Made by a program: the position numbers and the translations under genes
Assembly (NCBI GenBank): GCA_021811105.1
Contig: JAJZPM010000010.1
Location: forward strand, 1 to 64,000
Length of the DNA: 64,000 bases
From: Nitrospirota bacterium
GTDB taxonomy: Bacteria > Nitrospirota > Thermodesulfovibrionia > Thermodesulfovibrionales > UBA6898
Reading direction: 5' to 3'
The notes under the pieces: model-generated
The model's input: the letters and a program-made list of their open reading frames with translations, nothing else
The model's database searches: none
What the model was told of the DNA's origin: nothing
Shown here: positions 11,226 to 54,911 of the stretch, piece after piece
Layout of the letters: every line of letters starts with the position of its first letter
How positions within the stretch are numbered: position 1 is the stretch's first letter

Positions 11226-12086
11226 ATGCAAAGAATCGGCGTGCACACGTCAATAGCAGGAGGTCTGCCCGCGAGCGTCGAAAGAGCGAGGGCGCTCGGC
11301 TGTTCCACGTTCCAGATATTTTCCCATAATCCCCGGGGATGGGCCCTTGCCCCGCGGTCCCGGGAGGAGATAGCCGCATTCAGGCGGCTGACGGCGGCCT
11401 TTAATTTAAAACCGGTCGTCATCCATACGTCATACCTGATAAATTTGGCATCTGCCGACCCTGTTCTCAGGAGAAAATCTATGGAGATGGTGGTCGAGGA
11501 GCTGAACATTGCCGACTCTATCGGCGCTCAATACGTTGTGCTCCATACCGGAAGCGCATCCGGGGAAGACCCGAGGGAGGCGAGAAAGAGGGCGGCGACC
11601 AGTCTTGCCGAGGTAGCGGCAGCGGACGGATGGCGGGCGGGGCTTCTTCTGGAAAATACAGCCGGCGAGCGGGGAGATATCACGTCGAAAATCGGGGATA
11701 TTGCGGATATCGTCAGGCGTGTTCCCTCAGGACTGATCGCAGGCATCTGTCTGGACACCTGCCATGCCTTTGCCGCGGGATATGATATCGCTTCACAGGA
11801 GGGCATCGCGGTCCTGGCGGACGATATCAGGAAACACATTGGCAAACGTGGCCTCAAACTTGTCCATCTGAATGATTCGAAGGGGCCTCTGTCCTCGGGC
11901 CTCGACAGACACGAACATATCGGAAACGGCAGGATAGGAGTTGAAGGGTTCAGAAGGTTCCTTGGTCATCCTTTTTTTTCGGGACTTCCTCTGATCCTCG
12001 AAACGCCGAAAAAAAAAGACGAGGACGACCCCAGGAATCTTCAGGTTGTGAGAGAACTGCTAAGGGAGATGCCGTCGGCGCATTAG
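11226..12086 (+). CDS. nfo: Endonuclease IV (deoxyribonuclease IV)
   Basis: RIGVHTSIAGGLPASVERARALGCSTFQIFSHNPRGW...LDTCHAFAAGYDI...HLNDSKGPLSSGLDRHEHIGNGRIG. Confidence 0.95.
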   Translation: MQRIGVHTSIAGGLPASVERARALGCSTFQIFSHNPRGWALAPRSREEIAAFRRLTAAFNLKPVVIHTSYLINLASADPVLRRKSMEMVVEELNIADSIGAQYVVLHTGSASGEDPREARKRAATSLAEVAAADGWRAGLLLENTAGERGDITSKIGDIADIVRRVPSGLIAGICLDTCHAFAAGYDIASQEGIAVLADDIRKHIGKRGLKLVHLNDSKGPLSSGLDRHEHIGNGRIGVEGFRRFLGHPFFSGLPLILETPKKKDEDDPRNLQVVRELLREMPSAH

Positions 12087-12380
12087 CCCCCGCCGGATGC
12101 CCGACAAATAAACTAGGGCATGACGATATTTAATTGCCGGGTAAATAAATTAGGCTGCTATCATGGCAACGTTGACTTATCGGGCACTTGAGTTGATAGA
12201 TGGCGAATGATCGTTTAAGCTCTGGAACGATTGTATTCTCAAACTGTCCGATCCTTCAATAATTCGGTCCACTTGTAGCTAATGCATATTTTTTCGTACT
12301 AATTCTATGCTGGACTGTTACAAAGAATGAGAGCTTTGTTGACTTTCAAAATAAAAATGTTATTAAAATGAATTTTTTTG

Positions 12381-12410
12381 TTGACAAAGCCAGTTATTTT
12401 GTTGTAAAGT
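12381..12410 (+). promoter_or_regulatory. Sigma70-type promoter TTGACA-18-TAAAGT
   Basis: -10 box ends 10 nt before the ATG at 12421. Confidence 0.75.
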
Positions 12411-12420
12411 TCTAAACAGA

Positions 12421-12990
12421 ATGTCAAAACAAGCAAGGGATACACTGAAAAGTTTATTCTCCTCCTCAATAAGAGCTGACCTTCTGGCCCTTCTCCTTAA
12501 TAATCCCGAAGAAAAATTTTACGTGAGAGAAATGGCGACCCTTTTAAGAAAAAACCCTTCAGGCGTGAAGAGAGAGCTCGATAACCTTGAAAAAATGGGG
12601 ATAGTAACCAGCAAGAAGGTGGCGAACCTCAAGTATTTTCAGGCGGAGAAGAAATCCCCTCTTTTTTCAGAACTAAAGAGTCTTATCGCCAAGTCTTTAG
12701 GTGCAGCGGGTGCCCTCAAGGCCGCACTGAAAACGTCCGGGGCAAAAATTGCGTTCATATACGGTCCATATGCCGAAAGTGAAGATGCGGATACCGTCGA
12801 TCTCCTGATCGTCGGGCCGGCCTCTTCTCTCAGTATCGATGGATTCAAGGATATTGAAGAAAAGTTCGGGAAGAAGATCAATCCCACTATCCTGGATGAG
12901 AGTGAGTTTAAAAGTAAAAGGGATAGCGGGGACCCCGAATTGGAGAAGCTCCTGTCAGGAAACAAGATTTTATTGACAGGGAAGCTTTAA
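12421..12990 (+). CDS. Winged-HTH transcriptional regulator fused to a nucleotidyltransferase-like domain
   Basis: HTH SSIRADLLALLLNNPEEKFYVREMATLLRKNPSGVKRELDNLEKMGIV, then degenerate FIYGPYAESEDADTVDLLIVG (NTase-like). Confidence 0.75.
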   Translation: MSKQARDTLKSLFSSSIRADLLALLLNNPEEKFYVREMATLLRKNPSGVKRELDNLEKMGIVTSKKVANLKYFQAEKKSPLFSELKSLIAKSLGAAGALKAALKTSGAKIAFIYGPYAESEDADTVDLLIVGPASSLSIDGFKDIEEKFGKKINPTILDESEFKSKRDSGDPELEKLLSGNKILLTGKL

Positions 12991-13035
12991 CTTAATCTTC
13001 CCCGACCTACCGGGGATGGAAAGGTGGTGACGAAG

Positions 13036-13119
13036 ATGGCAGTAAAGAAAGCAGCAGCAAAGAAGCCGGCAGCAAAGAAGGCAGCCCCGAAGAAGGCGGC
13101 GGCAAAGAAGAAAAAATAA
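13036..13119 (+). CDS. 27-aa Lys/Ala/Pro-rich basic peptide (histone H1 tail-like)
   Basis: Manual translation MAVKKAAAKKPAAKKAAPKKAAAKKKK*; followed by a rho-independent terminator. Confidence 0.6.
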   Translation: MAVKKAAAKKPAAKKAAPKKAAAKKKK

Positions 13120-13139
13120 GTTTGCGTGAAGATTACTCA

Positions 13140-13178
13140 GGGCTGGGGAACCGTCATTCTCCAGCCCACTTTTTTTTC
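13140..13178 (+). terminator. Rho-independent terminator
   Basis: GGGCTGGGGA-N8-TCTCCAGCCC, then ACTTTTTTTT. Confidence 0.85.
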
Positions 13179-13248
13179 GTGTTTATATTAGCACAGACAG
13201 CGGTAATTTGGTAATATTATTTTGATTTTGCTCGTAACTAACTGCTTT

Positions 13249-14145
13249 TTAAGTATTTATTTGCAGTAGCGGACTGATGGGGATCGGTTCTTCCAGTATC
13301 AAATCCCAGGCCTCGGGAAAGGCAAGCAGCTTTTTCAGGAATTTTATATTTGCAGAATGCCCCGACCTGTTCGCAATAATATGACCGTAAATCGGGAAAC
13401 CTAGAATTGCCAAATCTCCGATGGAATCAAGCACCTTATGCCGAACAAACTCATCCTTGAACCTCAGTCCCGATGAGTTCAATACCCCGTTTTCGCCGAG
13501 TATGATGGCATTGTCTAGCGATCCGCCCTTCGCAAGGCCGTTTGTCCTCAGGTACTCGATATCCTTGAGAAAACCGAAGGTCCTTGCAGGCGCAATTTCC
13601 CTGGCAAAGCTCTCTTCATTGATCTCGAGACTAAGCCTCTGTTCTCCGAAGCCATAGTGGTTGAAATAAATGCTGTAGGTAATCCTTCTGCCGTCGTAAG
13701 GAAGAGCCGCCACCTTCGCATTGCCGTCGTCGAATATTATCGGCCTTCTGATCCTAAGATATGGTCTCTTCTTCCCTTGTTTTGCGATTCCTGCCCTCAA
13801 TAGTATGTTTATCAGTTCTGTCGAACTTCCGTCCAGGATCGGGATCTCCGGTCCGGCTACATCTATAACGATATTGTCTATGCCGAGGCCGGCAAGGGCA
13901 GCCATAATATGCTCGACAGTCCTTATCTTGGCCCCGTCCTGGCCGATAGTAGTCGCAAAGGCCGTATCGATGACCGACCCCACGTGGGCCTTGATCACCG
14001 TGTTTTTGTCGCTCCGGATGAAGGTAATGCCGGTGTCCCTCGATGCAGGCTTCAGCACCACCTTGGAGTGCCTGCCGGTGTGCAGACCGATTCCCTCAAA
14101 AGAGACTTCGTTCTTTATTGTTCTTTGTGTGCGCATATTAATCAA
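13249..14145 (-). CDS. lpxC: UDP-3-O-acyl-N-acetylglucosamine deacetylase
   Basis: QRTIKNEVSFEGIGLHTGRHSKVVLKPA...TVEHIMAALAGLGIDN...ILDGSS. Confidence 0.96.
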   Translation of the reverse strand: MINMRTQRTIKNEVSFEGIGLHTGRHSKVVLKPASRDTGITFIRSDKNTVIKAHVGSVIDTAFATTIGQDGAKIRTVEHIMAALAGLGIDNIVIDVAGPEIPILDGSSTELINILLRAGIAKQGKKRPYLRIRRPIIFDDGNAKVAALPYDGRRITYSIYFNHYGFGEQRLSLEINEESFAREIAPARTFGFLKDIEYLRTNGLAKGGSLDNAIILGENGVLNSSGLRFKDEFVRHKVLDSIGDLAILGFPIYGHIIANRSGHSANIKFLKKLLAFPEAWDLILEEPIPISPLLQINT

Positions 14146-40334: not shown

Positions 40335-40454
40335 CTTACACGGAAATAATGAGGGCCAAAATCAGGAAACGGCGAGGAACGTGTACAAGGGCAAGGCTGA
40401 ATTTACCGTAGCCGGGTATGGTACCTGTTGCAGCCTGCAGCGGGGGGAGGTCTC

Positions 40455-40823
40455 GTGAAGACCATCCTCATCGTCGAGGACTCCGCCACGACGAGGGCGC
40501 TGATCAGGGCCGTTATCGACGAAATCGGAGAGTTTGAGACCAGCGAGGCCTCTTCCGGGTTCGAGGCCCTTAAGATGCTGCCGCAGCAGGAATACGACCT
40601 CATTATTACCGACATCAATATGCCCGACATCAACGGGCTCGAGCTCATCAGTTTCGTGAGGAACAACCCGCGGTTTACCCACCTCCCGATCGTGATCGTC
40701 AGCACCGAAAGGAGCGAGGAGGACAAGAAAAGGGGCATGGCGCTCGGCGCTACCGCGTATGTTACCAAGCCCTTCAAGTCTTTTGAACTGCAGGAAATCA
40801 TAAAGAAGACCATTGGTGTATGA
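40455..40823 (+). CDS. CheY-like response regulator (GTG start)
   Basis: KTILIVEDSATTRALIRAVIDEIGEFETSEASSG...DLIITDINMPDINGLEL; GGGGGGAGG RBS. Confidence 0.92.
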   Translation: MKTILIVEDSATTRALIRAVIDEIGEFETSEASSGFEALKMLPQQEYDLIITDINMPDINGLELISFVRNNPRFTHLPIVIVSTERSEEDKKRGMALGATAYVTKPFKSFELQEIIKKTIGV

Positions 40824-42799
40824 AATCTTCGAAAAAGGAATTCATCGCAGAGGCCGAAGAACTTATCGAGGAATCGCAGAGGCTGATCCTCGAGGTACAG
40901 GACACCCTTTCAACCGGTCTTAACCCCGACACGATCAACGCCTTGTTCAGGTCGATGCACACCCTCAAGGGCGTCTCCGGGCTTTTCGGGCTCCAGGGGA
41001 TTACCAATTTAAGCCACTCGCTTGAGACGCTCATGGACGACGTAAGGCTCGGGAAGATCGAGGTCGACGAAAGGGTCGTAAACTTTCTCTTCAAAAACGT
41101 CGATATTCTCAAGGGTATAGTGGACAAGCTCAGCCAGACCGACGAGGAACCCGACTCGTCCGGTTTCGTCAGGGACATCGAGGTGTTCAGGGATTCTCTG
41201 AAAGGCGGAGCAGTGCTTCCCGCAGGCGGGGCTGTGATCGATGAGGCGATCATGAAGGTGCTGTCCGAGTACGAGGAGCACAGGCTCAAGGCCAACGTGA
41301 AGGGCGGAAAAGGTATCTACCTCGCAAAGGCGGTCTTCCCCCTTGAGACCTTCGATACGTCCCTCGCGGAACTTACAGGTCTGATCAAGGCAAAAGGCGA
41401 GCTCATCTCGACGCTCCCGACGTCGACGAACATCCCGGACGGCTCGATAGGGTTCAACCTGATGTTCGGAAGCCCGGGGTCACTCGAAGATATGAAAAAG
41501 GATATCCCCTTCGACATGGAAACCCTCGTCGGTCCGCAGGGAGCGACCCAGCTTTCCCCGCAGTCTCAGCTGCAGGCCCAGCCTGAAACGCACCTGAAGA
41601 GCACTACCACCACCGTAAGGGTCGACATAGAGAAACTCGACAGGATCCTCAACACCATAGGCGAACTGAGCCTCGCCAAAGAGGCGATGAGAAGGATCGG
41701 GACGGAACTGGGCGAGACTTACGGACATACCTCGCTCGTGTACGACATTCATAAGATAACCCAGACGCTCGAGAGGAGACTTGCGGAACTCCAGGACCAG
41801 GTCCTCGAGATCAGGATGGTCCCCATAGGCCAGATTTTTTCGCGGCTCGCACAGATCGTGAGACGCTATTCGCGGGAGATCGGCAAACAAATTGACCTTG
41901 TGATGTACGGGGAAGATACCGAACTCGACAAATACCTTGCCGAGGAGATCATCGACCCACTTATGCACCTGGTGCGTAACTCGATTGACCACGGTATCGA
42001 AATGCCGGAAGTGAGAAGAATGAAGGGGAAAAAGGAATCCGGAACGGTGGTGCTGAAGGCCTATCAGAAGGGCAATCATGTGGTCATCGAACTGAGAGAC
42101 GACGGGGGCGGAATCGATATCGAGAAGGTGAGAAAGAAGGCGATAGAAAAAGGACTTGTCCACGAGGACGCGGAACTGAGCGAGGCCGAGACGATCGACT
42201 TTATCTTCACCCCGGGGTTCAGCACGAAGGACGTGGTGAGCCAGGTCTCCGGCAGGGGGGTCGGTATGGATGTGGTAAAGGAAAAACTGGCTGCCCTCGG
42301 GGGATTTGCGGAGGTCGAGACGAAGAGGGGCGCCGGCACCACATTCATGCTCACGCTCCCGATCACTCTGGCGATCATCAAGGCGCTTATCGTACGCGTG
42401 GGAGAGGAACGGTTTGCGGTGCCGCTGACGTCTATGTCGGAGACGCTCATCGTGGAGCACAAGGACATCCAGACGATCGAGTGGAAAGAGGTCTATTATC
42501 TGAGGGGCGAGATGCTGCCGATGATCAGGGTAAACAAGTTTTTCGGTCTTCCGAACCAGGATACAGACCGTTCCTTTGCTGTGGTCGTCGGCTTCGGAGA
42601 GAGGAAGGTCGGTCTCCTTGTCGACGAACTCTTCGGGCAGCACGAGATCGTCATCAAATCGCTGGGCGACTACCTCAAGAAGCTGAGGGGATTCGCCGGG
42701 GCGGCCGAAATCGGCAAACACGAGGTGATTCTCGTCCTCGATATCGAATCCCTCATAGATGAATCGATCATCAAACAAAAGGGAACGGCATATGTTTGA
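40820..42799 (+). CDS. cheA: Chemotaxis histidine kinase CheA
   Basis: P1 SMHTLKGVSGLFG; LVRNSIDHGIE; GRGVGMDVVKE; C-terminal CheW-like domain. Confidence 0.97.
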   Translation: MKSSKKEFIAEAEELIEESQRLILEVQDTLSTGLNPDTINALFRSMHTLKGVSGLFGLQGITNLSHSLETLMDDVRLGKIEVDERVVNFLFKNVDILKGIVDKLSQTDEEPDSSGFVRDIEVFRDSLKGGAVLPAGGAVIDEAIMKVLSEYEEHRLKANVKGGKGIYLAKAVFPLETFDTSLAELTGLIKAKGELISTLPTSTNIPDGSIGFNLMFGSPGSLEDMKKDIPFDMETLVGPQGATQLSPQSQLQAQPETHLKSTTTTVRVDIEKLDRILNTIGELSLAKEAMRRIGTELGETYGHTSLVYDIHKITQTLERRLAELQDQVLEIRMVPIGQIFSRLAQIVRRYSREIGKQIDLVMYGEDTELDKYLAEEIIDPLMHLVRNSIDHGIEMPEVRRMKGKKESGTVVLKAYQKGNHVVIELRDDGGGIDIEKVRKKAIEKGLVHEDAELSEAETIDFIFTPGFSTKDVVSQVSGRGVGMDVVKEKLAALGGFAEVETKRGAGTTFMLTLPITLAIIKALIVRVGEERFAVPLTSMSETLIVEHKDIQTIEWKEVYYLRGEMLPMIRVNKFFGLPNQDTDRSFAVVVGFGERKVGLLVDELFGQHEIVIKSLGDYLKKLRGFAGAAEIGKHEVILVLDIESLIDESIIKQKGTAYV

Positions 42800-43610
42800 G
42801 GAGTTCTATGGGTTGACCGCTAAACCTTTCAGCAAGACGCCCGACCCGAAATTCCTCTTCTTCAGCAGGAGCCACGAGGAGGCGCTCGCGAGGCTGCAGT
42901 ACGCGGTGGAGGAGAAGGAGATGATCCTGCTTACCGGCGAAGTGGGCTGCGGCAAGACGACGCTTACGAGGGCGCTCATGGACGCGCTCGGCGATCAGTA
43001 CCGGATCATCACGATCATCAATCCCGTACTCAGTCCCGCGCAGTTTTTGAGGACGATCGCGAAACGGATGGATATCAATATCCCTTCGGCATACAAGGCC
43101 GACCTGCTGGACGCCATTTACGAAAAGGTCTTTCAGGACCACGAATCGGGCAAGACCCATGTGCTCATTATCGACGAGGCGCAGCTCATCCCGACCAAAG
43201 ATACCTTCGAGGAGATCCGGCTTCTTACGAATTTCCAGCTCGACTATACGAACCTCCTGAGTGTCGTGCTCGTCGGACAGACGGACCTCAGGAGGCGGTT
43301 GAGCCATAAGACCTACCTGCCGCTCAGACAGAGGATCGGCCTTTTCTATCATCTCGGGCCGATATCCGGGAGCGAGATAAAGGGGTACGTCATGTTCAGG
43401 CTGAAGACGGCCGGCCGGGAGGAAGTCCTGTTTACGGATGCGGCGCTCTCCTCCCTGCATCGGTATTCAGGGGGGGTTCCGAGGGTCATCAACAGCATCG
43501 CCACCTCGGCGCTGCTCGACGGATTTTCAAGGGAAATTACGGTCATCGACGGCCCGCTGATAGAGGACGCGGTAAAGGAACTCGGTCTGAATGGATATCG
43601 CGAAAATTAG
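42792..43610 (+). CDS. ExeA/TniB-like AAA ATPase
   Basis: MFEEFYGLTAKPFSKTPDPKFLFFSRSHEEALARLQYAVEEKEMILLTGEVGCGKTTLTRAL; Walker B VLIIDEAQLI; LVGQTDLRRRL. Confidence 0.92.
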   Translation: MFEEFYGLTAKPFSKTPDPKFLFFSRSHEEALARLQYAVEEKEMILLTGEVGCGKTTLTRALMDALGDQYRIITIINPVLSPAQFLRTIAKRMDINIPSAYKADLLDAIYEKVFQDHESGKTHVLIIDEAQLIPTKDTFEEIRLLTNFQLDYTNLLSVVLVGQTDLRRRLSHKTYLPLRQRIGLFYHLGPISGSEIKGYVMFRLKTAGREEVLFTDAALSSLHRYSGGVPRVINSIATSALLDGFSREITVIDGPLIEDAVKELGLNGYREN

Positions 43611-44334
43611 GAAGAAGGCGAAGGAGAAGGAAGAAAAAGGGCAGTTGTCGAAAGGCCCGGGCCCGGTGGAAACGCCGGCAGGAACTGAATCCGCAGGACC
43701 CTCCGTCACGCCGAAGGAGGAAACAGGACCTGTGGAGGAGACGGCCGGGACCGTCTTCACGGGACGACCCGCCGGGGCCGAGGAACCCGTGACACTCGAT
43801 GTTGAGGATGAAACGGTCCCGTTGCCGCCTGCGGTGAACAAGGAAGGCGAGAGAGGGTTTTCAGGGGAGAAGTGGCCGGCAGAGCCGGGCGATCTCCTTG
43901 AACTCCTGACGTTCAGTATCTCGGACGAGGAATTTGCCTTCAGGGTCCCCGAAGTCGAGGAGATCATACGGTATCAGAGGATCACGGGGGTCCCGACGGT
44001 GCCGGAGTACGTCCGTGGCATCACGTCCTTGCGCGGGAAGATAATCCCGGTCCTCGACCTGAAGAAGAGGCTTGTCCTGAAACGCGAGGGTTCGGAAGGG
44101 CCGCAGAAGACCGGGGACGGAAAGATACTGATCCTGGCGGGCCCCAGGGGCCTGATCGGCGCCACGATCGACAAGGTCCTGGGCGTGGTGAGGTTTACTG
44201 AAGGGAGCATCCTGCCTCCGCCCGGTCATCTTTCCGATGACGAACTCAGGTTTGTAGAAGGCGTAGTGATACTCGAAAAACGCTTTATATCGATTATCAG
44301 GTCTTATGATGCTCTGGATATAGAGTTCACATGA
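43591..44334 (+). CDS. CheW domain protein with long charged/Pro-rich N-terminal extension
   Basis: DEEFAFRVPEVEEIIRYQRITGVPTVPEYVRGITSLRGKIIPVLDLKKRL. Confidence 0.92.
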   Translation: MDIAKIRKKAKEKEEKGQLSKGPGPVETPAGTESAGPSVTPKEETGPVEETAGTVFTGRPAGAEEPVTLDVEDETVPLPPAVNKEGERGFSGEKWPAEPGDLLELLTFSISDEEFAFRVPEVEEIIRYQRITGVPTVPEYVRGITSLRGKIIPVLDLKKRLVLKREGSEGPQKTGDGKILILAGPRGLIGATIDKVLGVVRFTEGSILPPPGHLSDDELRFVEGVVILEKRFISIIRSYDALDIEFT

Positions 44335-44343
44335 GGAGGGCGA

Positions 44344-47196
44344 ATGCGCGAAAAGCTTGAATTGAAGATCCTTGCACTTGTGGTGAGCCTGCTGCTCATC
44401 GGCATAATCGCCGCAGGCCTTATGGTCCTGACCATCGAAAAGAAGAGTCTGTACGGCATTACCGAGGCAAGTTCGGAGGCGACCGCGAAGGTTATCGCAA
44501 AAGAAGTCGAGAGGACGATGCTGGAAGGACGGGCCGACCTCATAAAGGCCATGCTGCAGGAACTGAAAGGCGCCAGCGGCGCCGAGGAGATTTCGCTGAT
44601 CAATTACGCCGGACGGGCCGCCTTCGAAAAAAACGCGCCCACGACCGAGGCCGGGGTTATGAAGAAGATCGCGCAGACGAAGGCCCCGTTCGTAGAGAGG
44701 GGCGTAACCGAACTTACGTTTTACAAACCGCTCGAAAATACCGAACGCTGCAGGAGCTGCCATGCGAATGACCCCGAGATGCTCGGCGCGGTGAAGACTT
44801 CGATCTCGATCGCCAAGGAGTACGACCACGCCAAGAGGCTGATCCTCATCGTGATCCTTGCGACCATTTTCGCCTGCTTTGCATTCAGCTTCATCCTGTG
44901 GGTAATGATACGCCGGATGGTGATTGTTCCGGTGAAGTCGCTCGAAGAAGCGGCGATGAAGCTATCCGAAGGGGACATGTCTTTCAAGGTGCAGGTAAAA
45001 AGCAAGGATGAGATCGGCAGGTTCACAGGCGCGATCCGCGACTCGCTGCTTTCGATATCCGGGATCCTGCAGAGGATCAAGGATGTCTCGAAGCGCGTGA
45101 CGCGCGTCGCCGCGGATGTCGAGAGAGAATCAAGGAAGGTCGCCGAGGGCACGATGCTCGAGACCGAGGCGATCAATAATATCTCCTCCTCGATCGAAGA
45201 GCTGAATGCGGTCATATCGGAGATCGCGGACGGCACCGACGGGCTCGCGGCCTCCGCCGAGGAGACGGCGGCCGCGATGGAGGAGATGGTGACGAGCATC
45301 ACCCAGATCACCACCAGCACCCAGGACATGTCCACGGCGGTGGAATCAACGTCGGCTTCCATAGAAGAATTATCGGCGACGATCAAGGAGGTCGCCGCAA
45401 ACGCGAGCGAACTCGCGACGGCCGCTGAAGAGACGCAGACCGCGATCCTCCAGATCTCGACGTCCGTGAAGGAGGTCGAACAGAGTGCAAAGGAATCGGC
45501 GATGCTCTCCGACAAGGTCAAGAACGATGCGGTAACCTTCGGCATGATCTCGGTAGAAAAGACGATCCAGGGGATGCAGAACATAAAGGCGTCGGTCGAA
45601 AAGACAGCGGACTTTATCAAGATCCTCGGCGGAAGGTCGGAGGAAATCGGCAAGATACTGAACGTGATCGACGAGATCACGGACCAGACGACGATGCTCG
45701 CCCTCAACGCTGCGATCCTCGCCGCACAGGCTGGTGAGCACGGGAAGGGCTTTTCGGTCGTGGCCGACGAGATAAAGGAGCTCGCCGACAGGACCTCGAC
45801 GTCGACCCAGGAAATCGCGGCGCTGATCCAGTCGGTCCAGCAGGAGGTGAGCGACGCGGTGGCCGCAATGGGCGAGGGACTGAGTTCCGTCGAGCTGGGA
45901 TTCAAAGTCACGAACGAGGCGGCCGACGCGCTCAGGAAGATCATCGAAAGTTCGAAACGGTCGTCGGAGATGGCCGCCGCGATCGAGCATTCGACTACGG
46001 AGCAGTCGAAGGCCACGACCCTTGTTTCGTCGGCGATGGAAAAGGTCCTGAGCATGGTCGGACAGATCGCCAAGGCGACGACCGAACAGAACAGGGGTAT
46101 CCAGCTTATCATGAAGGCGACCGAGAAGATCAGGGACGTCTCCACTCATGTGAAGACTGCCACAAACGAGCAGTCCCTGAACAGTAAACAGATCTCCCAG
46201 GCGGTCGAGCTCGTGTCGGACAAGAGCCAGCAGATATCGCGCGCGATCAACGAGCAGAAGATCGGTTCCAGCCAGATATGGAATTCGATCGAAAAGATCA
46301 AGGACCTGCCGAGGGAAAACAAGGACCGCGCGTTCAAACTTGACCAGATGGTGAAAGACCTTCTGAAAGACGCCGAACTCACAGTGATCGAGATGGAGAA
46401 GTTCCAGTTCTCGGAGGACACCTCCGCCGGCCTTCTCCGGATGGGGATTGTGCCGCTCGAATCCCCAGCCGTGATGTTCAAGAAGTTCACCCCTCTGGCA
46501 GAATACCTCGGCAAGAAGTTGAAAAAGAGGATCGACCTGAAGGTCGCGGTCGACTTTCAGGGGGCGGTCGGCGACATAGGCCAGGGCATCACGCAATTCT
46601 GCTTTATGACGCCTTCAACGTATATAGAGGCCCGCAAGAAATACTCGGTCGGAGTGCTCGTGAAGGCCCTGAGGGACGGGAAGCCTTTCCAGCACTCCGT
46701 TATTGTGGCGAAGGCGGACGGCCCCATAAACACCATAGGGGACATAAAGGGCCATTCTTTTGCTTTCGGCGACCCGCATTCGACGTCAAGTCACATCGTC
46801 CCCCGGGCCATGCTCCTTGCCGCCGGCATCGACATAAAAGACTTGCTGTATTATAACTATCTGGGCCATCACGACGATGTCGCCAAGGCGGTCCTCGCGG
46901 GAGATTTCGACGCGGGTGGAATCATGGAGTCCACGGCGCAGAAGTTCAAGGACCTGGGGCTGAAACTGATCAAGTTTTCCGAGGACGTCCCTGAATTCAA
47001 CATCTGCATTTCGAAGGAGCTTGATGCGCAGGTCGTCACGGAATTGAAGAACGCGCTCACGGGCATCGACGACGGCACGCCCGAAGGCACATCTATCCTG
47101 AAGCCGATCAACGAGAGCTATTCCGGCTTTGTCGAAGCGGCCGACGAGGATTACGACAATATACGGATTATGATGTCGAAGATCGGGTTGATCTGA
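44344..47196 (+). CDS. Methyl-accepting chemotaxis protein with periplasmic CxxCH motif and C-terminal PhnD-like substrate-binding domain
   Basis: TM1; CRSCH; TM2; HAMP; MCP hairpin [38 protein letters not shown]-terminal [47 protein letters not shown]... Confidence 0.93.
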
Positions 47197-47298: not shown

Positions 47299-49320
47299 AT
47301 GATGTTTCGGAAATCGATAACCGCAAAGTTCCTTGCAGCGCTGTTCGCCATTCTCCTCATAGGCCAGGCGGCGGGCGCACTGATACAGATTTTCTACACG
47401 CGGGCATCGCTGTTTGATTCACTCAGGAACAGGATAGAGACGGAGGGCGCCATATCCGCTGGGGTAAGCGCGAACCCTTTGCTGAACCTCGACTATGTGC
47501 TTCTGGATTCCTCTCTGGATGAGATTATGAAGGACGAGGACATCACCTCTATCCGCGTCCTCGACAGGGACGGCAGGGTGGTGAGGGAGCGCGTCAAGGC
47601 GGCCGATGCGGGAAGCTCCCCGCTCGCCTCGTTTTATAAGCAGAACCTTTCTTTCAGGACGCCGGTCACGGCCTCAGGCGCCGCCATCGGCGAAGTGGTT
47701 ATCGGTTACACGACAAGATCGATCAACGGGTCGCTTTTTGAAGATATTCTCACGATTTCCCTTTACCAGCTTATTATGCTCTTTTCCGTCGGCGTGATCA
47801 TGATGGTCCTCTTCAACAGGAACATCAAGAAACCGGTGGCGGAGATAAACCGCGCGGTAGAGAAGCTCACGCTCGGCGAGCTGTCTGCCGAGATCCCGGA
47901 CCTCGGGGAAAGCGAGATGGGGAGTATCGCCAAGGGCATCGCCTTTCTCGCAGAACGGCTTTCGCTCACCGTGTCAAGGCTTAATTCAACGGCCGTAAAC
48001 GTGTCGATGGCGATCAAGCAGGTGGACATCACCTATAAGCACGTGATCGGGGGGTCGGTCAGGCAGAGCAATGCGGTCAAGGAGATTTCGAACTCCGCCC
48101 ACCACGCAAACAAGGCGCAGTTCGCCATCAACGAGAGCGCAGAGCGGCTTGCGAGCCTTTCGACCGAAAACGTGTCGTCGCTGATCGAACTGAAGGCGAC
48201 TGCCGAAGAGATCGCCTCGAACAACCAGAGGCTCTTTAGGGCGACCGAGGACTCCTACTCAGTCGTTGCGCAGATGACCCACACGGCGAAGGCGATTTCG
48301 AAGAATGCGGGCGAGGCACTCTCGGCTGTGGAAGACACCTCTGCCTCGGTAGAAGAGATAGGCGCGTCCATACGGGAAGTGGAAGAGCATGCCCGGGAAT
48401 CTTCCAAGATGGCGGGGAAGGTGCAAGAGATCACTTCGGACATCGGCATGCTCTCGATCGTCAACGCGGTCGAGGGGATGGACAAGATTTCGGTCGAGGT
48501 GAAAAAATCTTCGGAGATCGTACAGCGGCTGGGGGCCCGTTCGGCGGACATCGAGAAGGTGCTTTCGGTGATCAAGGACGTGACCGAGCAGACGAACCTG
48601 CTCAGCCTCAATGCGGCGATCCTCGCGGCGCAGGCCGGGGAATACGGCAAGAGTTTTTCAGTCGTGGCGGATGAGATCAGGGGGCTCTCAGAAAGGACCG
48701 CGAGTTCGACCAGGGAGATAGGCGGCATTGTAAAGACGATACAGCGCGACATCAAAGACGCGGTCTCGTCGATCGACTCGGCGAAGCTGAAGGTCGATGA
48801 GGGCAACGACCTGGTGATCAAGGTCGGCGACGCGCTCAAGGAGATCCTGACCGCCTCCGAGCACTCCACAGAGATGACGAAGGCGATAGAGCGGGCGACC
48901 GAGGAGCAGTCGCTTGGACTGAGGCAGATCACCGCGGCGATCGAGGACATACGGAAGATGATGCACAGCGTCGCCAAGTCGACGCTCGAGCAGGACAGTG
49001 CACTCAGTTATCTTCTCGACGGCGTCGGCGAGGTGAAGGAGGTCGCCGACCTGAGCAAACGCGGCACCGAGGAACAGGCGATCGGCACGAGGGGAATATC
49101 GAAGAACCTCGAAATGGCCAATGAGGGAATCACAAGGATAAACGAGGCGGTGCTCAACCAAAAGAAGCTGAACGATTCGATCCTCCAGGCGATTGAACAG
49201 ATCGGGAATATCGGTGCGACTACGGTGAAGGACATGGAAGAGGTCTCCCATTCGCTGAATACGCTGTTCGAGGAGATCGAGGTGCTGAAAAAGGAGATGG
49301 AGGTCTTCAAGATAAGATAG
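47299..49320 (+). CDS. Methyl-accepting chemotaxis protein
   Basis: Two TM segments, [41 protein letters not shown]. Confidence 0.95.
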   Translation: MMFRKSITAKFLAALFAILLIGQAAGALIQIFYTRASLFDSLRNRIETEGAISAGVSANPLLNLDYVLLDSSLDEIMKDEDITSIRVLDRDGRVVRERVKAADAGSSPLASFYKQNLSFRTPVTASGAAIGEVVIGYTTRSINGSLFEDILTISLYQLIMLFSVGVIMMVLFNRNIKKPVAEINRAVEKLTLGELSAEIPDLGESEMGSIAKGIAFLAERLSLTVSRLNSTAVNVSMAIKQVDITYKHVIGGSVRQSNAVKEISNSAHHANKAQFAINESAERLASLSTENVSSLIELKATAEEIASNNQRLFRATEDSYSVVAQMTHTAKAISKNAGEALSAVEDTSASVEEIGASIREVEEHARESSKMAGKVQEITSDIGMLSIVNAVEGMDKISVEVKKSSEIVQRLGARSADIEKVLSVIKDVTEQTNLLSLNAAILAAQAGEYGKSFSVVADEIRGLSERTASSTREIGGIVKTIQRDIKDAVSSIDSAKLKVDEGNDLVIKVGDALKEILTASEHSTEMTKAIERATEEQSLGLRQITAAIEDIRKMMHSVAKSTLEQDSALSYLLDGVGEVKEVADLSKRGTEEQAIGTRGISKNLEMANEGITRINEAVLNQKKLNDSILQAIEQIGNIGATTVKDMEEVSHSLNTLFEEIEVLKKEMEVFKIR

Positions 49321-49812
49321 ATGCAGAAGTTTGCCGTCTTCAACATAGCGGACGAAACGTTCGGAATAGCAATCGGGCGGGTCGTCGAGATTATCAAACC
49401 CCAGAAGATCTATTCGATGCCGGGACTTCCCGATTTCCTCTCCGGAGTGATGAGCGTGAGGGGAGCCGTAATTCCGCTCATCGATCTCAGGAAACGTTTC
49501 GGGAAACAGCCGTCCGGCAAGAAGGAGAGGATCATAGTCATCCGTTCAGGACAGGAGAAGTTGGGGGTCCTCGTCGACGGGATGAAGGAGATCATGTCCC
49601 TCGCGCCCGATGAGATGATACTGCCGCCTTCGATATTCAAGGGGTTCAAGACGGAGTATCTCACCGGCCTGGGCAAGAAGAACGAGACGATCATCATATT
49701 GCTTGATATCGACAACCTCCTCACGTCCGAGGAGAAGATCATGTTGCAAGAGTCGATGGGACTGATAGAGGAGAGCGGTGCAGGAACTCAGAAGGCTGAT
49801 CAGCGACAGTAA
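49321..49812 (+). CDS. CheW-like adaptor
   Basis: FNIADETFGIAIGRVVEIIKPQKIYSMPGLPDFLSGVMSVRGAVIPLIDLRKRF. Confidence 0.93.
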   Translation: MQKFAVFNIADETFGIAIGRVVEIIKPQKIYSMPGLPDFLSGVMSVRGAVIPLIDLRKRFGKQPSGKKERIIVIRSGQEKLGVLVDGMKEIMSLAPDEMILPPSIFKGFKTEYLTGLGKKNETIIILLDIDNLLTSEEKIMLQESMGLIEESGAGTQKADQRQ

Positions 49813-51751
49813 TGTAGAGACCAGAAGAGAGGCGGTCGAAAGCATGAAGGGGAGCGTGGACCGGGAACACATCCCCCTGCTCCTGAAGGCGATGGAGGAC
49901 GCCAGTTGGCGCGTTCGGAAGACCGCGGTAGACATCCTCTTCGAGGACTATCCGGTGGAGCAATACATCCAGGGGCTGATACAGCTGCTCCACATCGAGG
50001 ACAACGCCGGCGCAAGGAACTCGGCGATAGAGGCGCTGATACGGCTCGGCAGGAAGGCCACGCTTTTTCTCATCGAGGCGTTCAAGACGCCGAACAAAGA
50101 CGTGAGGAAGTTCATCATCGACGTCCTCGGGGAGCAGCGGGACAACAGGTCCCTGCCGCTGATGCTCGAGGCAATCAGGGACGAGGATGAAAACGTCAGT
50201 GCCACGGCGGTGGAGCACCTCGGCAAGGTGGGGGAGATATCGGTCGTGGACGCGCTGATAGAGATATTGGACGGCGGAGACTTATGGGTGGCCTACCCTG
50301 CGGCGGACGCGCTGGGGAGAATAGGCAACAAAAAGGCGCTCCCGTACCTTCTTTCCGCCCTGGGCAGAAAACCCCTCAGAGAGCCCGTGCTGAAGGCCCT
50401 CGGCAGGTTCTCCGATCCGTCGACGCTTGGGCATATCATCCCGCTGCTTGAAGATCCTTCAAAGAACATCCAGGAACAGGCGTTGAAAACGATCGAACGG
50501 TTCTACCATAATGGAGTCGGCGCCGGCCCTATCACCGCAGAGATGAGGAGAACCCTCGGTAACAGGGCGATGGAACTGCTGATCAACCACGCCTGGTCGG
50601 CCAAGCGCGAGGTGAGGATATCGGCGATCATGCTCCTCGGCCTGATGAAGGACGAGGCGGCCTACGGGCCTCTGCTCGATATGTCCCACGAGGAGGAGTT
50701 TGCAGAGGACGTGAAGAACGCCCTCGTCTATATCGGCAGAGACAAGCCGGAGTCGCTGCTGAAGCTGTTCGATACGGACAATCCCCATCAGATGCGGTTT
50801 ATCTGCGAGGTGACGCAGAAAGTCGCGTCCCCGGTCTACTACGATATTCTCGACCGCCTGCTTTTTAACGAGGACGGTCACGTCAGGTCCACCGCGGCCG
50901 TCAGCATATCGCAGCTCGAAGACCCGCGCTGTGTGACAAAATTGCGGAAACTTCTCACCGATCCTTATGAGGACGTCCAGGAGGCGGCGGTAGCAGCACT
51001 TGCAAACCTCAGAGACTTCCTGGATCCTGCAGATTTGGCGGCTTCCCTCAGGGACGCAAACCCCGTCATGAGGAGGAATACGGCCCTCCTTATGGGGAAG
51101 ATCAAGGCTTCAGGGACGGTGGAAGGACTCGGCTTTGCGCTCAAGGATGAGAACGTCAGGGTCAGAAAGGCGGTGGTGGCGGCGTTGTCGGCGATCGGGA
51201 CAGAAAATGCGGTAAAGCATCTTTCCTACGCGCTCACCGATGAGAGTCCCGACATACGGATTTCTGCCGCGCTCAGTCTCGGCGCGATGAGGGGCAGTGG
51301 CGTGCTGGAATCCCTCACGATCCTGAGCACGGACCCCGACAATTCGGTGAGGGTCGCCGCAGCCAAGGCGCTCGGCTTGCTCGGCGACAGAAATGCCGTG
51401 AAGACGCTCACCGGTCTTCTTTCTGACAGGAACGGCTTCGTGGTCGCGGCATCGATCGAGTCGCTCAGTGGAATAGGCGGCAATGAAGCCAGGGACGCGA
51501 TCCTTGGGATGCTCAATTCTGCAGACGACGAGATCAGGAGGACCGCGATCATCGGTCTCTCGCCGTTTGAGGATGTGGAAAAGAACCTTGTCCCGTTTCT
51601 TCACGACCCGGACTGGGCGACCCGCATCTCTGCGGTCAGGACGCTCGGCAGGAGGCCCGAAGGGTACGTCAGGAAAGAACTCGAAAGACTCCTTGACACT
51701 GAAGAAGACCCTACCGTACTAAAGGCTGTCGAGGAGATCATGCGTGTTTGA
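49778..51751 (+). CDS. HEAT-repeat protein (GTG start)
   Basis: Many about 31-aa repeats, e.g. DENVSATAVEHLGKVGEISVVDALIEILDGGDLWVAYPAADALGRIG. Confidence 0.92.
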   Translation: MQELRRLISDSNVETRREAVESMKGSVDREHIPLLLKAMEDASWRVRKTAVDILFEDYPVEQYIQGLIQLLHIEDNAGARNSAIEALIRLGRKATLFLIEAFKTPNKDVRKFIIDVLGEQRDNRSLPLMLEAIRDEDENVSATAVEHLGKVGEISVVDALIEILDGGDLWVAYPAADALGRIGNKKALPYLLSALGRKPLREPVLKALGRFSDPSTLGHIIPLLEDPSKNIQEQALKTIERFYHNGVGAGPITAEMRRTLGNRAMELLINHAWSAKREVRISAIMLLGLMKDEAAYGPLLDMSHEEEFAEDVKNALVYIGRDKPESLLKLFDTDNPHQMRFICEVTQKVASPVYYDILDRLLFNEDGHVRSTAAVSISQLEDPRCVTKLRKLLTDPYEDVQEAAVAALANLRDFLDPADLAASLRDANPVMRRNTALLMGKIKASGTVEGLGFALKDENVRVRKAVVAALSAIGTENAVKHLSYALTDESPDIRISAALSLGAMRGSGVLESLTILSTDPDNSVRVAAAKALGLLGDRNAVKTLTGLLSDRNGFVVAASIESLSGIGGNEARDAILGMLNSADDEIRRTAIIGLSPFEDVEKNLVPFLHDPDWATRISAVRTLGRRPEGYVRKELERLLDTEEDPTVLKAVEEIMRV

Positions 51752-52616
51752 GAAGGAAGATATCATCCCCCTTTCGGAGGATGTATTCAGACTCATACGG
51801 GACATTATCAGAGACTACTGCGGTCTGTATTTCGATGACAGCTCCAAGTACCTGCTCGAAAAAAGACTTTCGAGGCGGATACGGAACCACCACCTGAACG
51901 ACTTCAGGGACTACTACCGTTTCATCAGGTACGACAAGAACTACGACGACGAACTCACCGCGATCATCGACCTGCTCACGGTGAATGAGACGTACTTTTT
52001 CAGGGAACAGAACCAGTTGAAGGCCTTCAGCGAGGAGATCCTGAATGAGCTCAGGGAGAAAAACCGTGCGAGCAGGTCCCTGCGGATATGGTCGGCAGGC
52101 TGCTCTACCGGCGAAGAACCCTATACCCTTGCGATGCTGATCAACGAAAATGGGGATTTCAGCGGCTGGGATATCGAGATTTACGGCAGCGACATCAACC
52201 AGCGGGTGCTCCAGGCTGCGCGAAAGGGGATCTACCGGAAGAACTCTTTCAGGACCGCCGACCCCTATTTCGTCGGCAAATATTTCACGGATGAAGAGGG
52301 GTCCTTCAGGATATCCGACGGCATAAAAAAGTACGTGAATTTCAGCTACCTCAACCTTCTCGACCCGTTCAAGGCGAGGTTCCTCGGCAAAATGGATGTC
52401 GTATTGTGCAGAAATGTATTAATATATTTCGACGGCCCTTCGAGAAAGAAGGTCATCGAGAATTTTCATGACAGGCTCGTGGAAGGGGGGTATCTGCTCC
52501 TCGGCCACGCAGAGTCCCTGATCAACATTTCTACCGCCTTTACCCTGAAGCACTTCAAAAACGATATGGTCTATCAGAAGCCGGAAGGGAAAGGCCTGGA
52601 TGTGAAATTCTCATAG
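51744..52616 (+). CDS. cheR: CheR methyltransferase
   Basis: LLTVNETYFFREQNQLKAFSEEIL, IWSAGCSTGEEPYTLAMLI, VLCRNVLIYFD. Confidence 0.96.
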   Translation: MFEKEDIIPLSEDVFRLIRDIIRDYCGLYFDDSSKYLLEKRLSRRIRNHHLNDFRDYYRFIRYDKNYDDELTAIIDLLTVNETYFFREQNQLKAFSEEILNELREKNRASRSLRIWSAGCSTGEEPYTLAMLINENGDFSGWDIEIYGSDINQRVLQAARKGIYRKNSFRTADPYFVGKYFTDEEGSFRISDGIKKYVNFSYLNLLDPFKARFLGKMDVVLCRNVLIYFDGPSRKKVIENFHDRLVEGGYLLLGHAESLINISTAFTLKHFKNDMVYQKPEGKGLDVKFS

Positions 52617-52643
52617 GCAAATCATAATATCAGGAGTTAACGA

Positions 52644-53708
52644 GTGAGCACCAAAGTACTGATTGTCGACGATTCTGCGTATACCAGACAACTGATGAAG
52701 AGGATCATCGAGCAGGACCCGGGCCTGACGGTCGCCGGCATCGCCGGCGACGGCGTGGACGCGATGGCGAAGACCCTCCGGCTGAAGCCGGATATTATCA
52801 CCCTTGATTTCGAGATGCCCGAGATGGACGGGTTCAGTTTCCTCCGGTGGCTGATGCGTGAACGGCCTACGCCGGTGATCATGGTCACCTCTCACAACGA
52901 CTCGAAGACCGTCTTCAAGGCGCTCGAACTCGGTGCCGTCGACTTTATCGCAAAGCCGACGAAACGGGCGTCGCTCGAGTTGCAGAGCATAGAAAAAGAC
53001 CTGCTGCGAAAGATAAGGGGCATCAAACAGATCAGACTGGATATCCTCAGCAGGAACCTGGAACTGCTCGACAGGGAGGAAACCGTCGAGCCTGCCGGCG
53101 ACACCGGCCAGGAGTCGGTGCAGGTGGTGGCGGTGGGTTCCTCCACGGGGGGCCCGGCGGCCCTCCAGATCATCCTGACGAGACTGCCGGCCCATTTTCC
53201 TGCGGGCATCATCGTAAGTCAACATATGCCGAGGGGTTTTACCGGCCCCCTTTCAGAGAGACTGAACAAGCTGGCGCAGATCAGGATAAAAGAGGCCGCG
53301 GAAAATGATCTTATAGAACCCGGCACGGTCCTGATCTGTCCCGGGGGGTACCATCTCGGCCTGAAGAGGAAGGGACCAAAGACTGTGGTCGCGCTGAAAG
53401 AGGGGAGACTTACCGACAAATACGTGCCCTCGGTCGACTACATGATGAGCTCCGCCGCCGAAGTATTCGGGGCGAACGCCATGGGAGTTTTGCTGACCGG
53501 AATGGGCAATGACGGGGCGCGGGGCATGGTGGAAATAAAAGGGAAAGGCGGTTATACTATAGCAGAATCGGAAGAGAGCGCAGTGGTTTTTGGTATGCCC
53601 GCCGAGGCGATCAAGGCCGGGGCTGTCGAAAGTGTGTTGCCGATATCGGACATTCCCGCGGATATAATTCGGGTAGTAAGCTACTCGGTGAACAGGGAGA
53701 ATGCGTAG
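52644..53708 (+). CDS. cheB: CheB protein-glutamate methylesterase
   Basis: Receiver plus VAVGSSTGGPAALQIIL, SQHMPRGFTGPLSERLN, LLTGMGNDGARGM; GTG start. Confidence 0.97.
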   Translation: MSTKVLIVDDSAYTRQLMKRIIEQDPGLTVAGIAGDGVDAMAKTLRLKPDIITLDFEMPEMDGFSFLRWLMRERPTPVIMVTSHNDSKTVFKALELGAVDFIAKPTKRASLELQSIEKDLLRKIRGIKQIRLDILSRNLELLDREETVEPAGDTGQESVQVVAVGSSTGGPAALQIILTRLPAHFPAGIIVSQHMPRGFTGPLSERLNKLAQIRIKEAAENDLIEPGTVLICPGGYHLGLKRKGPKTVVALKEGRLTDKYVPSVDYMMSSAAEVFGANAMGVLLTGMGNDGARGMVEIKGKGGYTIAESEESAVVFGMPAEAIKAGAVESVLPISDIPADIIRVVSYSVNRENA

Positions 53709-54542: not shown

Positions 54543-54911
54543 ATGCCGAACATACTCGTTGTTGAAGATTCACCGACAATGAGGCAGCTTATCAGTTTTG
54601 CGATCAAGAGGATACCGAATTCCCATGTCATAGAGGCTACCGACGGGGTCGACGCGCTGAAGAAGCTTTCTTCCGGGAAGGTCGACCTTATCCTGGCGGA
54701 CATCAATATGCCGGTGATGGACGGGCTGAAACTCGTGAGCCTCGTGAGGGGCAACCCGGCATACAAGAGCATCCCGGTCATTATCGTGACGACCGAGGGG
54801 GCGGAGGAAGACAGAAAGAGGGCGCTTTCGATTGGCGCGAACGCATATCTCCCCAAACCGATACAGACGCAGGAACTGATCAGGCTCGTGAATACCTACC
54901 TGGCGCACTGA
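54543..54911 (+). CDS. CheY-like response regulator
   Basis: NILVVEDSPTMRQLISFAIKRIPNSHVIEATDG...DLILADINMPVMDGLKL. Confidence 0.93.
   Translation: MPNILVVEDSPTMRQLISFAIKRIPNSHVIEATDGVDALKKLSSGKVDLILADINMPVMDGLKLVSLVRGNPAYKSIPVIIVTTEGAEEDRKRALSIGANAYLPKPIQTQELIRLVNTYLAH

Follow-up and report, generated by a model that had tools for sequence, protein, structure and literature searches.

Layout, topology and spread of the receptor

Can a single chemoreceptor be informed from both sides of the membrane? This question is raised by a gene in the window, the 64,000-nucleotide stretch of Nitrospirota contig JAJZPM010000010.1 analysed here, which encodes a methyl-accepting chemotaxis protein (MCP) carrying a PhnD-like binding domain behind its signalling hairpin. 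Type-II binding proteins are extracytoplasmic modules in textbooks; here one has apparently been relocated inside the cell to serve a widespread family of receptors as their unchanging input, while the outer sensor is swapped or lost. We conclude that the product is probably a dual-input chemoreceptor, combining an outer c-type heme with an inner, anion-sensing binding domain. One receptor may thus convey information about both the inside and the outside of the cell, the outside usually being read as redox state or gases through heme. Its main parts are as follows (TM, transmembrane segment; aa, amino acids).

44344..47196, + strand: chemoreceptor gene, 950 aa, in the order TM1, periplasmic heme domain, TM2, HAMP, MCP hairpin, PhnD domain (predicted cytoplasmic)
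44368..44424, + strand: TM1, residues 9-27 (hydropathy)
44431..44832, + strand: predicted periplasmic c-heme PAS/Cache-like sensor domain, residues 30-163 (PF21563, hmmsearch, Foldseek)
44839..44901, + strand: TM2, residues 166-186 (hydropathy)
44908..45066, + strand: HAMP, residues 189-241 (PF00672; right boundary inferred)
45067..46413, + strand: MCP hairpin, residues 242-690, tip about 426-490 (PF00015; tip identity among orthologues)
46435..47193, + strand: C-terminal PhnD/PtxB-like type-II binding-protein domain, residues 698-950, predicted cytoplasmic (PF12974, phmmer against the PDB, AlphaFold 2, Foldseek)

A sequence-only reading had proposed this layout, from TM1 and a segment containing CRSCH to the C-terminal binding domain, and it proved accurate, as Pfam and hydropathy agree. 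Pfam places HAMP at residues 189-226 and MCPsignal (PF00015, 155 bits) at residues 401-569; the tip is 91% identical among orthologues, and with HAMP following TM2 and che genes nearby the protein is a member of the MCP family. Kyte-Doolittle analysis detected just two TMs, starting near residues 9 and 166 with peaks of about 2.9.

The fusion is not confined to the window. In about 20 of the 27 genomes of the same family we found orthologues of 950-960 aa that share this layout, and the fusion is therefore real. In the phylum sample of 396 Nitrospirota genomes, the MCP and PhnD combination was found in 91 (E <= 1e-55), mostly as a single open frame of about 950 aa, and this identical layout led us to reject a chance or assembly fusion. 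Ninety-eight fusion proteins were compared, of which a few are truncated at contig ends or frameshifted; the named relatives are Nitrospirota/Thermodesulfovibrionia metagenome bins. Outside the phylum, one pattern scan yielded stand-alone relatives and no fusion, and the best plasmid matches were annotated phnD genes, both being weak negatives. One orthologue (L080, 6978-9851) is broken into two open reading frames of 287 and 664 aa, through either a frameshift or a misassembly.

From the hairpin to the C-terminus the window protein contains no TM, its top hydropathy window (1.13) lying within the binding-protein fold. Nor was a hydrophobic segment found between hairpin and PhnD domain in the 98 relatives, one of which has a marginal window (1.71) within the PhnD domain itself. 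The earlier claim that no third TM precedes the binding domain thus held. Because no TM separates it from the hairpin, the PhnD domain should be cytoplasmic. PF12974 proteins are normally extracytoplasmic, and a hidden third membrane segment would place this one outside; given the hydropathy of the window protein and the 98 relatives, and an MCP signalling domain that has to be cytoplasmic for contact with CheA and CheW, we regard such an arrangement as very improbable.

The outer domain, a predicted c-heme sensor

44518..44520, + strand: Met59, aligned with Met60 of GSU0935 (distal heme ligand)
44749..44763, + strand: CRSCH, residues 136-140, predicted c-heme attachment motif and proximal His

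The periplasmic segment matches PF21563 (Mcp40H-20_sensor) over residues 50-155 with 43.6 bits against a cut-off of 27, and a profile of 29 relatives retrieved from the PDB, by hmmsearch, only 3b47 (GSU0582, 1.3e-13) and 3b42 (GSU0935, 2.7e-10). These two structures were also the top Foldseek matches of the AlphaFold model of the domain (mf51b2c460a81; mean confidence score, pLDDT, 88), at TM-scores of about 0.5 that are modest because the crystals are domain-swapped. Met59, Cys136, Cys139 and His140 are invariant in the 29 sequences; counted along the alignment with GSU0935, Met59 and His140 correspond to Met60 and His144 of that receptor, the two axial heme ligands of that protein (PMC8396549). 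The CRSCH noted in the sequence-only reading therefore aligns with an established heme site, and the distal Met is conserved with it. By profile, fold, CxxCH and distal Met the outer domain is a sensor of the GSU0582/GSU0935 type, with predicted heme attachment. The Geobacter sulfurreducens receptors (PF21563) likewise carry their c-heme sensor between two TMs, followed by HAMP and MCP domains; they end with the MCP domain, however, without a C-terminal binding-protein domain (PMC8396549).

The inner PhnD-like domain

46780..46788, + strand: Ser813-Thr814-Ser815, equivalent to the STS oxyanion motif of PtxB
46870..46872, + strand: His843, equivalent to PtxB His160
46996..46998, + strand: Phe885, replacing the phosphite-capping Tyr208 of Te_PtxB (Phe in 94/98 relatives)

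The C-terminal domain matches PF12974 (Phosphonate-bd) over residues 700-937 with 201.9 bits against a cut-off of 27, and its AlphaFold 2 model (pLDDT mostly above 90) matches PtxB, ArrX and PhnD crystal structures. The earlier label "PhnD/SsuA" can be sharpened: by sequence and fold the domain sits in the PtxB/ArrX part of PF12974, with PtxB as the top PDB sequence match (phmmer). PtxB (PF12974; 5jvb, 5o2j) shares its fold (TM-score about 0.83) and its STS...His anion site, and ArrX its fold (TM-score 0.85-0.87). PtxB works in the periplasm as part of an ABC transporter and caps its ligand site with Tyr/Asp; the receptor domain has Phe/Leu at these positions, is predicted to be cytoplasmic and is fused to an MCP; ArrX and AioX, in turn, are separate periplasmic sensory proteins.

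When the ligand contacts listed for Te_PtxB (PMC5700983) are transferred to the receptor, S130, T131, S132 and H160 become S813, T814, S815 and H843. The anion-binding half of the PtxB site is thus largely retained at sequence level, while the phosphite-specific cap is consistently different, the Asp22 position (L705 here) being Leu, Ile or Val in 97 of the 98 relatives. In Te_PtxB itself, Y208F lowers phosphite affinity by about three orders of magnitude, roughly 1000-fold (PMC5700983). Because the Tyr/Asp cap is replaced, and because of this effect, phosphite specificity is unlikely; with the cap changed, neither phosphate nor phosphonate is therefore established as the ligand. A strict phosphite or phosphonate receptor that had carried over the specificity of PtxB or PhnD would account for the best PDB match and the conserved STS and His, but is improbable in view of the altered cap, of a TIGR03431 (PhnD equivalog) score of 129.7 against a cut-off of 261.1, and of the neighbouring genes read, which include no transporter or phosphonate gene. 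By that score and its che neighbours the domain does not belong among the PhnD transporter proteins either.

It might instead bind nothing and serve as a structural or docking module, such as a dimer clamp or a tether that holds a partner or adaptation enzymes. Several altered PtxB contacts agree with this, as do the many structural Gly, Pro and Leu residues among the best-conserved positions. Set against it are the retention of S813 (98/98), H843 (93/98) and Y760 (95/98) and the existence of eleven receptors without any other recognised ligand-binding domain, and we consider a ligand-free role unlikely, if somewhat less so than strict phosphite or phosphonate sensing. In favour of the dual-input reading, pocket positions exceed the domain average in conservation (permutation p about 0.02).

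Two further candidates were discarded. An AioX-type arsenite sensor was rejected as the equivalent of Cys106 is Thr756 (via Te_PtxB G73 and the numbering of PMC5908839). Cys753 and Cys888 occur together in 58 of the 98 relatives, and since each also occurs singly in 17-18 they form no firm pair.

Signal integration

In the dual-input receptor that we favour, a covalent c-heme ligated by His140 and Met59 would report redox state (or NO/CO) outside, as in GSU0582/GSU0935. Inside, the PtxB/ArrX-like domain, attached to the returning helix end at the level of HAMP, would bind a small intracellular anion and close on it, so that the receptor dimer would pack differently near HAMP. What the sequence itself shows is the domain layout, the topology, the conservation, the heme- and anion-site motifs and the operon; that heme is attached, that a ligand binds, that closure acts as the signal and that the inputs are coupled is inferred. 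Through the tip, both inputs would tune a single CheA; the companion MCP described below would sit in the same array, and CheR and CheB would adapt the receptor. A precedent is TlpD, whose C-terminal cytosolic ligand domain sends its signal down the coiled coil to the tip (PMC12871147). In TlpD and the other MCPs that end in a CZB domain, the C-terminal module binds zinc and the receptor is soluble, whereas the receptor described here spans the membrane and carries a binding-protein fold of two lobes.

Several points weigh against this proposal. The topology is based on hydropathy; PtxB contacts are changed (Y55 to F738, Y100 to Q783, which is Q or H in relatives, D22 to L705 and Y208 to F885), and the equivalents of T131 and S132 vary in some relatives, so that anion affinity is unproven. 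The pocket conservation test is just moderately significant, and we found no experiment on any family member in the open-access literature. The suggestion of the sequence-only reading that redox or heme sensing outside may be combined with small-ligand sensing inside nevertheless remains the best one, because none of the observations it had named as fatal was made: the domain has its PhnD match, no hidden TM appeared and the heme site aligns.

Our guess at the inner ligand is a sulfur or phosphorus oxyanion. It is possible, though doubtful, that the PhnD domain senses an intracellular oxyanion of this kind (sulfate, sulfite, thiosulfate or phosphate), the receptor comparing the outside acceptor or redox state with the respiratory intermediates of the cell. 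The gene dsrA scores above cut-off in about 84 of the 91 carriers against 173 of all 396 sampled genomes, an association too confounded by phylogeny to be counted as evidence. Each of the ingredients has been described before, namely heme MCPs, PhnD-like sensors and sensor domains at the C-terminus of MCPs; for the combination of a heme MCP with a C-terminal PhnD domain, we found no description in the open-access literature. The existence of this receptor family suggests that uncultured sulfur-cycling Nitrospirota sense their internal state.

Constant and variable parts of the family

The two sensors differ in their constancy. Among family orthologues the PhnD domain is on average 67.8% identical, versus 56.7% for the heme domain. 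CxxCH is present near the N-terminus in 72 of the 98 fusion proteins; the others have a 4HB, Cache_3-Cache_2 or sCache_3_2 outer domain, or none. A bare membrane hairpin of two TMs and a short loop occurs in eleven proteins (six long, five short; N-termini inspected for ten of them), and as the periplasmic domain is absent, PhnD is their sole recognised ligand-binding domain. On a quick tree of the PhnD domain, with approximate likelihood-ratio (SH-aLRT) support only, there are at least 11 switches of outer sensor type, and the periplasmic domain is lost at least five times, on well-supported branches. The arm from hairpin tip to PhnD domain measures 241-248 residues for proteins of the long class and 150-152 for those of the short-hairpin class, a near-constant distance which would therefore hold PhnD at the level of HAMP. 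The natural series of heme with PhnD, another outer sensor with PhnD, and PhnD alone is suited to the study of two-sided input integration. In the short-hairpin class (L239-L243), all five carrier genomes have flagellin, unlike most long-class carriers.

Origin of the inner domain

The nearest tree relatives of the inner domain are domains of secreted tandem-PhnD proteins and not ABC-transporter proteins. In the window's own genome, the gene of one such protein (L248, G000:C12:30000-46713, 11708-13447) has as neighbours a histidine kinase gene, a gene for a sigma-54 response regulator and an operon for a PhsA-like molybdoenzyme; the group resembles the ArrX/AioX sensory systems (PMC5908839) and possibly serves to sense a sulfur oxyanion. 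A second PhnD-like lipoprotein of the same genome also adjoins a kinase. Because these relatives adjoin histidine kinases, a sensory rather than a transport ancestry is suggested. Related PhnD proteins give weak matches to the TtrS model, and TtrS-type histidine kinases likewise use a PhnD-like domain as sensor. That sensor is N-terminal and periplasmic in TtrS, whereas in the receptor it is C-terminal and predicted to be cytoplasmic.

Other PhnD-like genes were encountered: a 754-aa protein with a DsbD/CcdA-type membrane domain and two PhnD domains (L094, 7338-9602; G012:C57), and a shortened PhnD-like open reading frame adjoining a membrane protein (L247, 7171-7746; G000:C20), where the full-protein alignment crosses stop codons, perhaps marking a pseudogene.

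Operon and cellular context

The receptor lies in a che operon, largely conserved within the family, in the order CheY, CheA, AAA ATPase, CheW, receptor, companion MCP, CheW, HEAT-repeat protein, CheR, CheB, GAF protein and CheY.

40428-40823: CheY-like receiver
40820..42799, + strand: CheA (Hpt, H-kinase_dim, HATPase_c and CheW domains)
42759..43610, + strand: AAA ATPase of the ExeA / XrtA-associated type (TIGR03015 below cut-off; in 19/20 family loci)
43591..44334, + strand: CheW-domain protein (PF01584; in 19/20 family loci)
47299..49320, + strand: companion MCP, 673 aa, without PhnD or CxxCH (in 20/20 family loci)
49321..49812, + strand: CheW (PF01584)
51744..53708, + strand: CheR (51744-52616) and CheB (52644-53708)
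54543..54911, + strand: CheY-like receiver

The hairpin of the companion MCP equals that of the receptor in length (523 residues align to 523 in one relative). A DUF4388 (PATAN) protein is encoded upstream, and in cyanobacteria such proteins have links to type IV pili. All 27 family genomes encode PilT, whereas only 34 of the 91 carriers yielded a flagellin match, leaving 57 without one. Carriers lacking flagellin may plausibly direct their output to pili or to some other target. In the window's own genome, flagellin gave two modest matches.
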